Made by a program: the position numbers and the translations under genes. A stretch of 64,000 nucleotides of DNA from Alkalicoccus daliensis (lineage in GTDB: Bacteria > Bacillota > Bacilli > Bacillales > Salisediminibacteriaceae). Positions 58,778 through 64,000 of the stretch are shown here, piece after piece. Under the pieces are notes generated by a model that worked only from the letters and a program-made list of their open reading frames with translations, searched no databases and was not told the origin of the DNA. The stretch lies in assembly GCF_900103955.1 (NCBI RefSeq), contig NZ_FNIL01000005.1, positions 62,001-126,000 on the forward strand. Direction: 5' to 3'. The stretch's first letter is position 1, and every line of letters starts with the position of its first letter.

Positions 58778-59491
58778 ATGACAAAAGACCGTCCTCTAGA
58801 GGCAGAGGTGGGAGGATATATTACTTCCATGCTTCGTACGAATTTTGGGAAAGGGCCGACTTCTGTATATGTTACGCTGAAGCCGCCTTTTTTTACTGTG
58901 CATCTGCGGGGATTTTTGGCCCCTATGGAGAAAATACTATTAAAGCAAAATGAAACGGAGCGAGTGCTGGAAACAAGAGATATGCTGATGCAGGAGATGC
59001 AGCAGGAAATAAAACATCAGTTATGGGATCAGGCAAAGCTGGATGTACGGGAAATTTATGCAGACTGGCAGCTGGAAAATGAGACAGGGGTCATTTTTGG
59101 AGTATTAAAGCAGGGGCAGCAGGAGGAAAAAGAGTGGCCGTGGCCGGAGGATGTTAACCGGGAGGAACTTACTGAGAAATTAAAAAAAGCCAGTAAAAAC
59201 GCGGAAAAAACGCCTGTGGTGACGGAGGTGTTCTGGCTGAATGACCGGACGATATTAGTCAAGCGTTCAGGAATTCTGGTAAGAATCGAAAAAGAGTTAA
59301 TCAAAAGAGGTGTGATTGAAGATCTTAAGCTGGCCAAACGGCCATTGGAACGAAGAGTTTTAATAGAAGTAGGGTTGGAAGAAACATTAAAAAGACATGT
59401 GGACGATTATTTTGTGGATTGGGATTTTGAAAATGATCTTGGCTATACAGTCATCACGCTGCAGACAAAAAAACAGACGCCTAAGGGCTAA
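58778..59491 (+). CDS. Duplicated DUF2294 protein
   Basis: A 237-aa protein made of two DUF2294 (YbcI-like) units, about residues 5-115 and 140-232. Parallel segments are GPTSVYVTLKPPFFTVHLRG with DWQLENETGVIFGVL in the first, and VTEVFWLNDRTILVKRSG with DWDFENDLGYTVITL in the second. Single-unit members are common in bacteria; the function is unknown, though some occur near transporters for anions. No signal peptide. AAAGGGGAG precedes the ATG. Confidence 0.82.
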   Translation: MTKDRPLEAEVGGYITSMLRTNFGKGPTSVYVTLKPPFFTVHLRGFLAPMEKILLKQNETERVLETRDMLMQEMQQEIKHQLWDQAKLDVREIYADWQLENETGVIFGVLKQGQQEEKEWPWPEDVNREELTEKLKKASKNAEKTPVVTEVFWLNDRTILVKRSGILVRIEKELIKRGVIEDLKLAKRPLERRVLIEVGLEETLKRHVDDYFVDWDFENDLGYTVITLQTKKQTPKG

Positions 59492-59532: not shown

Positions 59533-59574
59533 AAAGCAGCTGCTCCAGAGCGGTCTGCAACAGCTGCTTTTTAA
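59533..59574 (+). terminator. Terminator of the DUF2294 gene
   Basis: AAAGCAGCTG (59533-59542) and CAGCTGCTTT (59561-59570) form a perfect stem followed by TT; it abuts the stop codon of the convergent small gene. Confidence 0.8.
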
Positions 59575-59765
59575 CCTATGGCCTGGGAAAAAGCTTCGCA
59601 TTCAGGACATTTGGAATAATTTTTTTCCTTCTCCAATGAAAGAATATATGTGTTGGAATTACTATATTCTCTTTCTTCGGGAGCGGTATCGGTAAAATCG
59701 CACTCTTCCCCCATGCATATGCTTTTATGAATACGACGCTTGTCATGGTCGATAAAAAATATCAT
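59571..59765 (-). CDS. Small Cys-rich protein, paralogue 1
   Basis: A 64-aa protein with two cysteine pairs (C17 and C22 in CMGEEC; C53 and C56 in CPEC), which could form one zinc site. The N-terminal FFIDHDKRRIHKS is basic, the middle acidic. It is closely similar to the next small gene upstream (59946-60140): the same length, cysteine spacing and motifs (FF.DH.K.RIH, CDF, KCPEC/KCSHC). Ribosome binding site AAAGGCTGAG. Its leader contains the hairpin pair described separately. I do not recognise the family. Confidence 0.7.
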   Translation of the reverse strand: MIFFIDHDKRRIHKSICMGEECDFTDTAPEEREYSNSNTYILSLEKEKNYSKCPECEAFSQAIG

Positions 59766-59854
59766 TCAAATCTCAGCCTTTCTGTTCTAGTTATATTGAA
59801 AAGGGAAGTCTGGACAGGAAAGAAAGTTCGTTTCTCTTCATTCGGACTGTAAAT

Positions 59855-59925
59855 CAAAAAAGCCGAAAAGACCCCCTCCGCAGGGAAATCTTTTCGGCTT
59901 TGCATTCAGCGCTATCGTCTGAAGC
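59855..59925 (-). promoter_or_regulatory. Structured leader with terminator, unit 1
   Basis: On the minus strand, a small hairpin TTCAG-9 nt-CTGAA (plus 59905-59923) is followed by a long stem AAAGCCGAAAAGA/TCTTTTCGGCTTT (plus 59859-59871 with 59889-59901) and a T run. It lies about 90 bases upstream of paralogue 1 and has a counterpart at 60172-60246. It may instead serve only as the terminator of paralogue 2. Confidence 0.55.
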
Positions 59926-59945
59926 ATACAACCTTATATTCAGTG

Positions 59946-60140
59946 TTAATCTATCGCAAGAGAAAAGGTTTCGCAGTGACTGCACTTGCTGTACCCTTTT
60001 TTCTCCTCCAAGTCTGTTACATAAGATTTGGAATCTGTAAATTCCCGCTTTTCTGCGGGAGAATCATTAAAGTCGCAGCTGTCACCTGCACAGACTTTTC
60101 GATGAATACGTTGTTTATGGTGATCGACGAAAAATCTCAC
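59946..60140 (-). CDS. Small Cys-rich protein, paralogue 2
   Basis: A 64-aa homologue of the preceding entry with CAGDSC and CSHC pairs at the same positions and the same FFVDHHKQRIHRK start. The start is taken as GTG at 60140, because AAAGGCTGTGAG upstream aligns with the ribosome binding site of paralogue 1 and the protein start then aligns exactly; the longer frame from 60248 would translate the terminator hairpin. Gene, leader and spacing show the two genes arose by tandem duplication. Confidence 0.7.
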   Translation of the reverse strand: MRFFVDHHKQRIHRKVCAGDSCDFNDSPAEKREFTDSKSYVTDLEEKKGYSKCSHCETFSLAID

Positions 60141-60171
60141 ACATCTCACAGCCTTTCGTTCAAATTCAAAT

Positions 60172-60246
60172 AAAAAAAGCCGAAAAGAACCCAGCTCACG
60201 CAAGGGAAATCTTTTCGGCTTTGCATACAGCACAACTGTCTGTAAC
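60172..60246 (-). promoter_or_regulatory. Structured leader with terminator, unit 2
   Basis: On the minus strand, hairpin TACAG-9 nt-CTGTA (plus 60226-60244) precedes the stem AAAGCCGAAAAGA/TCTTTTCGGCTTT (plus 60176-60188 with 60210-60222) and seven T, ending about 30 bases before the paralogue 2 start. Compared with unit 1 the small stem has a compensatory change (T-A to A-T). This position suggests transcription attenuation. The rest of the gap to 60483 holds no gene. Confidence 0.6.
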
Positions 60247-60483
60247 ATTTAACCTACTGGCTCACTATTTTATTCATTACATGATGTTCCTGCCGTACAG
60301 GAAATCTGCTGCAAAATTTTATAAAGTGTTTACCCGGACTTTTTAGAAACGCTAATGTTTTCTAAGTACTTCCTATCCTAAAGCAAAAGTCAGTATAAGT
60401 CAAATAGTTGCCAAACCATAACAATTCCCGGATTAAGAATGTTTAAAACAGGAAATATAAAAAAGTAGAAAAGGAGTGGTAAA

Positions 60484-61506
60484 ATGCAGAAAATGAATGC
60501 AGTTGGATTATTTGAATCTCTGCCGGCAGAGAATGAAGAAAGTTTACAGAATATAGAGGTAGAAAAGCCTTCACCACAAGGAAGAGATATACTGGTAGAA
60601 GTAAAAGCTGTTTCTATCAATCCAGTAGATACCAAGGTGCGGGGGTCTGTAAAAGAAAAATTGGAAGAGCCGAAAATTCTCGGCTATGATGCTGCAGGAG
60701 TAGTCGTTGCGACAGGAGAAGAGGTCTCTCTTTTTTCACCCGGGGATGAAGTTTATTATGCAGGTTCGGTTGGAAGGCAGGGGACCAATAGTGAATTTCA
60801 TTTAGTGGATGAGCGTATCACAGCAAAAAAACCGTCGAATCTTGATTTTGCGGAAGCTGCCGCACTGCCTCTTACGACGATCACTGCCTGGGAAGCGATT
60901 TACGAGCGCATGCATGTATCAAAAGATCCGGAGCAAAATAAAGGGAAAACTATGCTGATTATCGGTGCTGCCGGAGGAGTGGGATCGATTGCCGTTCAAA
61001 TTGCGAAACAGGCGGGACTTCAGGTGATTGGAACTGCTTCCCGGGATGAAACGAAAGAGTGGGTAAAAGCAAGAGGTGCGGATCACCTGATTAATCACCA
61101 TCATAATTTTAAAGAACAGCTGCAGGAACTTTCTATTAATGAAGTAGATTATATTTTCTGTCTCCACAGTACAGATATGCACTGGGAAGCGATGGTGGAA
61201 GTGGCCGCACCGCAGTCTTATATTTGTGCAATTGTAGACACCGCGGAAAAAGTCGACCTGGCGCTTCTGAAACAAAAAAGTATTACTTTTGCCTGGGAAT
61301 TTATGTTTACAAGGCCTCTTTTCACCACACCAGACATGATTGAACAGCATCATCTGTTAACAGATGCCGCTTCATTAGTTGAAAAGGGAGAATTGGCCAC
61401 AACGATGACAGAGCGATTAAAAGGCTTTGATGCAGAGAACTTCCGGAAAGGCCATCAGCTACTGGAAGAAGGTAAAATGATAGGAAAGCTTGTAATCGAA
61501 AAATAA
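60484..61506 (+). CDS. Zinc-type alcohol dehydrogenase-like protein (MDR superfamily)
   Basis: A 340-aa medium-chain reductase. The N-terminal GroES-like domain has SINPVDTKVRG and ILGYDAAGVV; the Rossmann motif is IIGAAGGVGSIAVQIAKQ. Zinc-ligand cysteines are absent, which fits the quinone-oxidoreductase/zinc-independent subgroup often annotated ZADH1-like. It should reduce quinones or enones with NADPH. AAAAGGAGTGG precedes the ATG. The Cof phosphatase gene starts 20 bases after its stop, probably on the same transcript. Confidence 0.92.
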   Translation: MQKMNAVGLFESLPAENEESLQNIEVEKPSPQGRDILVEVKAVSINPVDTKVRGSVKEKLEEPKILGYDAAGVVVATGEEVSLFSPGDEVYYAGSVGRQGTNSEFHLVDERITAKKPSNLDFAEAAALPLTTITAWEAIYERMHVSKDPEQNKGKTMLIIGAAGGVGSIAVQIAKQAGLQVIGTASRDETKEWVKARGADHLINHHHNFKEQLQELSINEVDYIFCLHSTDMHWEAMVEVAAPQSYICAIVDTAEKVDLALLKQKSITFAWEFMFTRPLFTTPDMIEQHHLLTDAASLVEKGELATTMTERLKGFDAENFRKGHQLLEEGKMIGKLVIEK

Positions 61507-62612: not shown

Positions 62613-62918
62613 ACTTATACGTATGACATCTTAAATATTACGTACAAGTAAAAAGAAACTTCTATATTCCTTGCGCAGACAGAACTTGCAGCTGTCTTAA
62701 AGTCTCCTAACCTAAGTACATAAGGCAATGATTAAAATAATTTTAGAAAATTTTAAATACATACTTGCGGATAAATAAATTATAATCTATAATACAAATT
62801 AACTCATACGTATATGTTTCTATTACTTGAAAGCGCTTCATATATATGTTTGTTATTACTAATTTATAACAAATAAAAATTAAGCAGCCTTTGAGCACGG
62901 AACACTCATACGTATGGT
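62613..62918 (+). promoter_or_regulatory. Operator cluster upstream of the sugar-binding lipoprotein gene
   Basis: ATACGTAT occurs at 62617-62624, 62806-62813 and 62908-62915, the last two in the longer context ACTCATACGTAT, and TACGTA recurs at 62639-62644. The TACGTA core recalls AraR-type (GntR/LacI) operators. A promoter TTGCGG (62764-62769), 18 bases, TATAAT (62788-62793) places one operator at the transcription start. TGAAAGCGCTTCA (62828-62840) is a cre-like site. The rest of the 625-base gap (62376-62612) shows no gene. Confidence 0.6.
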
Positions 62919-62961
62919 AGGAAATAACAGAAATAAGATAATTTAATCAGGAGGGGAAAAG

Positions 62962-64000
62962 ATGAAAAAGCATTTATTGATGTTAGCTTCTGTGAGTTTA
63001 GTGTTAGCTGCCTGTGGAGGCGACGGAGGCAATAACGGAGACAATAACGGAGGCAATAACGCAGAGAATAATGGAAATAATGGGAACGCCGGAGGCGGCG
63101 AAGCAAGTGGTGAAGGCGGAGAATTAGATGCCGAAGTTGTAGTAGGTGAGGACATTGAAGGGGCTACGGAATTTACGTTCTGGAACTTCCAGGAACTCCA
63201 CTCGGAATTCTTTGAGGATGCAGTAAACAGATGGAATGAAGAATATCCCGACCGTCCTATCCAGCTGACAGCAGAAACTTATCCATATGACCAGATGCAC
63301 AACAACCTGCTTCTTTCCCTGCAGTCAGGCAGCGGTGCGCCGGACTTTGCTGATATTGAAATTTCTCAGTTTGCAAACTATCTGCAGGGAGATGTTCAGC
63401 TGCAGCCGTTAAACGAACATATTGAACCAGTTATTGATGATTTTGTTGATTCCCGCTTTGAAATCTATGCAAAAGACGGCGAGTATTACGGCATGGATTA
63501 TCACGTAGGAGCAACAATGATGTACTATAACGAAGAAATTATGGAAGAAGCAGGCGTTGATATTGATTCGATCGAAACTTGGGATGACTATGTGGAAGCA
63601 GGTCAGCAGGTAGTAGAGAATACAGACGCAGTGATGACGACGGTAGAGTCAGACGAGCATTTTTCTTTCTGGCCGCTGATCAGCCAGCGTGAATCAGATT
63701 ATTTTGATGAGAATGGCGATGTGATTTTAGACAATGAAGTAAACGTAGAAACGCTTCAGTTTATTTCTGACCTTGTACATGAGCATGAAATTGCACAAAT
63801 TGCACCAGGTGGATTCCATCACGCAGAAGAATATTATGGCTTCATGAATGAAGGCGGTGCAGCTTCCCTGATGATGCCAATGTGGTACATGGGTCGTTTC
63901 CTCGACTACATGGAAGATCTTGACGGCAAAATGCAGATCCGTCCGCTTCCTATGTGGGAAGAAGGCGGCAACCGCTCCGCAGGTATGGGTGGAACAGGTA
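62962..64000 (+). CDS. Extracellular sugar-binding lipoprotein of an ABC transporter, 3' partial
   Basis: The frame is open to the window end (346 codons). A signal peptide ends in lipobox LAAC (C18), followed by an unusually long flexible linker rich in Gly and Asn (about residues 19-50), then a family 1 solute-binding fold: TEFTFWNFQELHSEFF, PDFADIEISQF, GMDYHVGATMMYYNEEIMEEAGV and ETWDDYVEAGQQ are typical of MsmE/AraN-type sugar-binding proteins. It should present an oligosaccharide or pentose to a membrane permease probably encoded just past the window. AGGAGGGG precedes the ATG. Upstream operators suggest sugar induction and catabolite repression. Confidence 0.92.
   Translation, partial: MKKHLLMLASVSLVLAACGGDGGNNGDNNGGNNAENNGNNGNAGGGEASGEGGELDAEVVVGEDIEGATEFTFWNFQELHSEFFEDAVNRWNEEYPDRPIQLTAETYPYDQMHNNLLLSLQSGSGAPDFADIEISQFANYLQGDVQLQPLNEHIEPVIDDFVDSRFEIYAKDGEYYGMDYHVGATMMYYNEEIMEEAGVDIDSIETWDDYVEAGQQVVENTDAVMTTVESDEHFSFWPLISQRESDYFDENGDVILDNEVNVETLQFISDLVHEHEIAQIAPGGFHHAEEYYGFMNEGGAASLMMPMWYMGRFLDYMEDLDGKMQIRPLPMWEEGGNRSAGMGGTG

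Follow-up and report, generated by a model that had tools for sequence, protein, structure and literature searches.

Within a 64,000-nucleotide (nt) stretch of the Alkalicoccus daliensis genome (contig NZ_FNIL01000005.1, positions 62,001 to 126,000; hereafter "the window", whose own numbering is used below), two genes for paralogous proteins of 64 amino acids (aa), here called A and B, lie on the minus strand, each behind a structured RNA element. On comparative grounds, we regard this element with high confidence as an attenuator, in which an antiterminator and an intrinsic terminator would be mutually exclusive. It also seems likely that each 64-aa gene is under antitermination of the kind known from ribonucleic antiterminator (RAT) sites, governed by a two-domain protein of the DUF2294/MpsC-like family (PF10057). 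Comparative evidence backs the structure and its covariation, the mutual exclusion with the terminator, the spread of the element and its linkage to DUF2294 genes.

Architecture of the leader element

The original prediction had described, before each 64-aa paralogue, a small hairpin (stem of 5 base pairs (bp), loop of 9 nt) followed by a terminator, with a compensatory change between the two small stems. Both hairpin pairs are present, on the minus strand, and the UA/AU change that distinguishes TTCAG/CTGAA from TACAG/CTGTA was confirmed. What had been seen as a 5-bp stem forms the upper part of a longer hairpin, an antiterminator that shares nucleotides with the terminator. In an alignment of 27 elements (A2, from which the near-duplicates L009, L010, L014 and L016 and the element-less homologues L023, L024, L026 and L027 were left out) the order of parts is GGU, a short stem P2b, P2a, loop, P2a', P2b', AA and terminator. 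The terminator begins with nucleotides to which the 5' GGU can pair and which also belong to the base of the antiterminator; hence, the two structures are mutually exclusive.

In leader B the antiterminator (GGUU...P2b...P2a-loop...AGCC; 60216 to 60255) carries the small hairpin P2a, which folds as TACAG ACAGTTGTG CTGTA (60226 to 60244), and is overlapped by a terminator of 13 contiguous pairs (60176 to 60222). Its pre-terminator fold reaches -10.4 kcal/mol, with GGUU paired to AGCC. Leader A has its antiterminator at 59895 to 59935, P2a (TTCAG ACGATAGCG CTGAA, again from folding) at 59905 to 59923 and a terminator of 16 contiguous pairs, counted from AGCC, at 59859 to 59901; its pre-terminator fold is -13.1 kcal/mol. 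Both antiterminators match the covariance model R1, with E-values (4.3e-13 for leader B, 1.4e-13 for leader A) that come from training sequences of that model. When each region was compared with 200 dinucleotide shuffles, none folded as well as 60164-60250 (z -5.0), 59845-59940 (z -4.5) or 59800-59940 (z -3.4), and one did as well as 60141-60255 (z -3.4).

Leaders of homologous genes were collected and tested for covariation, and the earlier proposal that selection acts on RNA structure is strongly supported by the outcome. Across the 27 aligned elements, 94.7% of cells in P2 and the terminator are paired and 11 pairs have changed on both sides; the covariation score was reached by none of 500 shuffles. 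In P2a (columns 16-18) the paired fraction rises to 98.8%. In 25 of the 27 rows all three pairs of P2b form if either of two registers, selected post hoc, is allowed, and the changes in P2b include UGC/GCA, GCC/GGC and AUA/UAU; forced into one register, P2b still has a covariation score above all shuffles. The base of the antiterminator varies as well. AG[TC] is found upstream of 7/12 terminators with a GCT core versus 0/75 with a GCC core (Fisher 1.4e-7, kinship uncorrected), and a few elements shift, by eye, to UGAU/GUCA, GAGU/GCUC or GGUU/AACC. Covariation of P2b and of the antiterminator base, together with the occurrence of the element before different genes, lends strong support to the attenuator role that had been suggested for the hairpins.

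Model R1 was run on 100 relatives and on 398 Bacilli. Over both searches it gave 94 matches at E<1e-6, 92 of which had a usable locus (not G225 and G398); 91 of these could be parsed (not G406:C35), and the 83 with E<1e-7 were used for linkage and P1 counts. In pre-terminator folds, the first nucleotides of the terminator are paired with the start of the element in 87 of the 91 parsed elements, against a mean of 61.9 and a maximum of 69 when the first 9 nt were shuffled (20 rounds). The loops had been said to differ freely. They do not: a loop of the form RC(N3-4)AGNR, closed by a stem of 3 bp or more, is found in 62/91 elements, usually with 9-10 nt (the folding program can close an inner loop pair, giving a shorter loop), and the loop of leader B is one base off this consensus.

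Several observations weigh against an attenuator of this kind. E-values from R1 are rough. In partial agreement with a refuting outcome named in the original prediction, the hairpin pair is lacking, by eye, in four of the 27 homologous loci fetched (L023, L024, L026 and L027, which are among the most distant); P2 and a terminator were found upstream, by eye or motif, in the other 23. In a weaker test, the number of pair types in P2 and the terminator was reached by 6/500 shuffles. For P2b held in a single register, both-side changes and pair types fell within the shuffles (451 and 354 of 500), and a second test of this sort did not rise above them either (58 and 183 of 500). AG[TC] is missing from 5 of the 12 GCT-core elements, and the consensus loop is absent in 29/91 elements, leader B among them. 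Lastly, a global permutation of the antiterminator pairing gave a weak result (22 of 2000) because GGU and GCC are nearly invariant across elements.

A third hairpin, P1, is added here to the two of the original prediction. In the window, P1 (TTAGAAA-ACATTAGCG-TTTCTAA; 60365-60343, minus strand) lies near the predicted 5' end of the transcript, directly after a predicted promoter of sigma-A type for the B-A unit (TTGACT, 17 nt, TAGGAT; 60375 to 60403, minus strand), placed there from sequence and coordinates. The leader of B should thus be about 230 nt long and contain P1, P2 and the terminator; A has its own P2 and terminator, and no P1 was seen for it. Of the promoter-proximal elements, 29/65 have a P1-like hairpin in the 320 nt upstream, compared with a mean of 0.96 (maximum 3) in shuffled controls and 0/65 on the reverse strand, and promoter-like sequences stand, by eye, just before them. 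A strict scan also found P1 and P2 hairpins with the common loop pattern in many homologous loci. As P1 has a loop of the P2 kind and lies near the start of the transcript, it probably provides another site for binding. Against a general role of this sort, P1 was not found in 36 of the 65 leaders close to a promoter, and it was missing from all 18 elements that directly follow a DUF2294 gene. The possibility that P1 is a mere DNA operator was judged less likely: several P1 stems keep G-U pairs (e.g., CTTGGGAA/TTTCTGAG), the loop is P2-like, and none is detected on the reverse strand.

Two-domain DUF2294 proteins as candidate regulators

Convergent with gene A in the window lies a gene for a two-domain member of the DUF2294/MpsC-like family (58778 to 59491, plus strand; Pfam E 1.4e-23), a candidate trans-acting RNA-binding regulator. 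Such genes are found within 2 kb of 60/83 elements (E<1e-7): upstream on the same strand in 23, downstream on the same strand in 22, convergent, as in the window, in 14, and upstream on the other strand in one. In the remaining 23 the gene is not within 2 kb; some of the loci span only about 1.3 kb on each side, and non-proximity was there read from gene places. When the 29 elements listed before model building are set aside, proximity holds for 31/54 at E<1e-7, and for 36/62 non-training elements at E<1e-6.

Co-occurrence points in the same direction. Among the 398 Bacilli genomes, 31 carry the element (E≤1e-6), 47 the two-domain protein and 29 both (Fisher 2e-29, kinship uncorrected). Among the matches listed, 34/34 element-positive relatives (E<1e-7) have a two-domain member. 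In 18 genomes with the protein and no strong element, 11 of 31 weak matches from a more sensitive search, spread over 9 genomes, lie within about 220 nt of two-domain genes.

A further relationship was found between loop and protein. A tree was built from the 60 different DUF2294 proteins whose genes lie no more than 2 kb from a parsed element. When loops were classed as canonical A..G, G..A, long or variant, the classes clustered on this tree, with 8 changes of type versus 23.4 for shuffled labels (0/200 as low). Genome G343 is an example: its three elements have three loops (two G..A, one variant) beside three DUF2294 proteins, and the protein beside the variant loop falls into a separate clade, where it is joined by a G085 protein that likewise accompanies a variant loop. 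Unlike loops (AUAGUAUUG, AUAUGUUAG and AUUGAUACG) are also seen beside two-domain DUF2294 genes in L133 (G084), L063/L144 (G083) and L136 (G039), and the DUF2294 genes of the G083 and G084 loci are tandem pairs. Possibly, these loops represent a separate code. Taking linkage, co-occurrence and clade-loop agreement together, we think it probable that the two-domain DUF2294 protein is the RNA-binding regulator of the element.

This assignment has to be weighed against a number of facts. Of the 27 sequences in the model, 8 were found beside DUF2294 genes, and the non-training elements include near-copies of a training sequence (G001, G005). Two genomes, G190 (E 2.7e-7) and G398 (E 8.1e-7), have an element, among the weaker matches, and no two-domain protein, and in the other 9 of the 18 genomes mentioned above no match was found near the DUF2294 gene at E 0.01. 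Agreement between clade and loop is also expected from inheritance of a linked locus, so that it supports recognition and does not prove it. The predicted structure of the protein is of low confidence (predicted local distance difference test, pLDDT, 52, from 3 sequences), a Foldseek search of the model against the PDB gave no match at E<=0.001, and the 6 proteins whose charge was counted are close to neutral or acidic. Its sequence had a best PDB match of E 0.0026, to engineered proteins. In the portions of the literature retrieved under DUF2294, PF10057 and NCBI-style names, the family is hardly mentioned, and no regulatory or RNA-binding role was found.

An alternative possibility is that the attenuator is the same and that another protein acts on it in trans, DUF2294 being a co-regulated partner in a signalling pathway. 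The 22 elements (of 83) that precede a DUF2294 gene on the same strand could indeed control that gene as a target. Furthermore, MpsC, a relative from Staphylococcus aureus, is reported not to be needed for MpsAB, and growth was unaffected when it was deleted (PMC6689103). However, where the DUF2294 gene is convergent (14/83) or lies upstream on the same strand (23/83), it is not controlled by the element, and loop type tracks DUF2294 clade. We consider a different trans factor unlikely, no systematic search for other candidates having been made.

Known systems and other explanations

Among known systems, the element comes closest to the RAT sites of BglG, SacY and LicT, where the end of a hairpin likewise overlaps the foot of an intrinsic terminator and the two folds exclude each other. 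The differences are the lack of an Rfam match over the cut-off, the companion protein, here DUF2294, and the second hairpin near the transcript start. Proteins with the CAT_RBD domain (PF03123) were detected in 18/20 element-bearing genomes tested, that of the window included. They are absent from G406, which has 6 elements, and from G206; hence, a BglG/LicT-type protein cannot be the general regulator. For nagY-nagE, the regulator is described as acting on the operon that encodes it (PMC9981650), and the same may happen here when a DUF2294 gene stands behind the element. On another contig (C3; locus L079) of the A. daliensis genome, an element at 1963-2031 precedes a further two-domain DUF2294 gene, an arrangement that suggests autoregulation.

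ANTAR systems (EutV, NasR) are alike in having two hairpins with similar loops, the second at an intrinsic terminator, an arrangement found here in 29/65 promoter-proximal leaders. The dual hairpins of ANTAR targets have hexanucleotide loops with A1 and G4 (PMC3369931), whereas the usual loop of the present element is of 9-10 nt with the consensus given above. An ANTAR regulator (PF03861) was rejected, as none was found in the 8 genomes of the genus (that of the window and 7 congeners); among the 100 relatives there were ANTAR matches in 11, over the cut-off in 9, and these include the element-bearing G054, G084 and G085.

Known Rfam families were discarded as the identity of the element for lack of a match over the cut-off. 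Rfam 15 gave no match in the window at gathering score, the best in the leader region being E 0.048 (20 bits, with a cut-off of 43), and in 12 related loci only Bacillaceae-1 was matched. The latter RNA lies at 1841-1907 of L075 (G069), about 1 kb upstream of the element. A term search of the main text of surveys of attenuators and structured RNAs gave no passage on the element in the portions covered.

A riboswitch, with direct binding of a metabolite or metal to the small hairpin, would fit the place before a terminator, the recurring loop and the Cys-containing product, and a metal- or redox-sensing RNA had been suggested in the original prediction. However, the hairpin measures about 40 nt, has a loop of 9 nt and no Rfam match, and is accompanied by a similar hairpin near the 5' end. 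In addition, genes for PhyH, STAS, HATPase and response-regulator proteins are among those found behind the element, the targets seen have no obvious metabolite in common, and the element is linked to one protein family. These features make direct sensing very improbable.

Fainter still is the case for ordinary intrinsic terminators with incidental hairpins and no regulation. The 23/83 elements behind a same-strand DUF2294 gene could be the terminators of that gene, and the original prediction had also considered that one hairpin might just be the terminator of an upstream gene. For B this does not hold because the nearest gene on its 5' side (60484-61506) runs on the other strand, so that the terminator of B has a predicted promoter and no gene upstream; the A element, which sits between B (first) and A (second), may do both jobs. 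Covariation outside the terminator, overlap with the antiterminator, P1 and genome-wide specificity also speak against incidental hairpins. Leader-peptide attenuation, with the AUG on the 5' side of P2 as start of a short regulatory frame, can be rejected for lack of conservation: an AUG with a GG-rich stretch ahead is present in 59/91 elements, but it is kept there in only 17 of the 27 aligned ones, the frames end at many places, and, where the AUG differs, its 3' partner may differ correspondingly (AUA/UAU in L018, ACG/CGU in L022), which indicates pairing and not coding.

Target genes, proposed mechanism and meaning

The attenuator, which is probably protein-dependent, is found before a variety of genes, at up to 6 detected sites per genome. 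Besides the 64-aa family, the genes behind it encode an HATPase (RsbT-like), a STAS protein (RsbR-like), a response regulator, a GNAT protein, a PhyH protein (EctD-like) with Mn-catalase encoded next, a membrane protein that matched nothing in Pfam, and DUF2294 proteins themselves; example targets were scanned against Pfam, and the labels RsbT, RsbR and EctD are our own readings. In L088, L134, L135, L140, L145 and L188 a recurring cassette combines the element with genes for a DUF2294 protein and an RsbT-like kinase, the kinase having been scanned against Pfam in the L135 protein only. This cassette would link the switch to the partner switching of stress responses, and some of the target genes suggest a general-stress input as signal. 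Two more elements of the A. daliensis genome (contig C10, L130, at 1757 and 2355) stand before short proteins of unknown function; no DUF2294 gene is near, and a P1-like loop was seen upstream of each by eye, unlisted in the strict scan.

In the window, gene B (59946 to 60140, minus strand, GTG start) and gene A (59571 to 59765, minus strand, ATG start) encode Cys-containing proteins that are 52% identical. Matches to B were found in 24/100 relatives, including all 8 genomes of the genus; two of the relatives are Salipaludibacillus. Three Cys residues, C22, C53 and C56, are invariant in the family alignment. The protein falls outside the families of Pfam and NCBIfam; when 20 aligned members were scanned singly, no Pfam family appeared in more than two (best E 0.0018, in one member), and searches against PDB sequences and plasmids gave no match. 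A model predicted from 4 sequences (pLDDT 75) had the N-terminal zinc domain of Escherichia coli Ada as its four best PDB matches (best template-modelling score 0.56, E 0.33), a hint only that the fold of the B product might weakly resemble that domain. Two other features of the window can be mentioned. A terminator-like inverted repeat (59533-59570; 17-nt arms, 88% complementary) separates gene A from the convergent DUF2294 gene, and both genes may use it. At 62906-63155, on the minus strand, short repetitive Pro/Ser-rich open frames (LRYCLRYCLRYC) hint at a small tandem-repeat stretch.

The mechanism that we propose is as follows. During transcription, the P2 hairpin with its base (GGU...GCC) would fold before the terminator and act as an antiterminator, taking up the nucleotides with which the terminator opens. 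Left alone, it would lose to the longer terminator, and transcription would stop. If a regulator gripped the loop, the antiterminator would be held, the terminator could not close and the gene would be transcribed. The direction of control (binding gives expression) is inferred. The regulator would most probably be the adjoining two-domain DUF2294 protein, a putative RNA binder whose two repeated halves fit, and do not prove, two sites; a simultaneous hold of these halves on P1 and P2 is speculation.

A broader reading, which we put forward tentatively and to which we give somewhat less than an even chance, is that two-domain DUF2294 proteins form a new class of RNA-binding antiterminators whose halves grip two like loops, one near the 5' end and one in the antiterminator. 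Such proteins might control a general-stress-like regulon across Bacilli, with RsbT/RsbR-like and EctD-like proteins, Mn-catalase, small Cys proteins and DUF2294 itself, and clade-specific loop codes might insulate several switches in one cell. The more restricted interpretation is protein-dependent antitermination that involves a new RNA family and, probably, a new regulator family.

The Pfam name of PF10057 presumably traces to the mpsABC operon of S. aureus. Pfam labels the DUF2294 family as a sodium-translocating system, yet S. aureus is reported to show no phenotype when mpsC is deleted (PMC6689103), and the present proposal gives a concrete, testable function to this widespread orphan family. 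It also adds a class of attenuators, probably protein-dependent, without Rfam match. Where one genome has several loop types, each with a DUF2294 of its own alongside, these would make up a natural set of orthogonal RNA-protein pairs.
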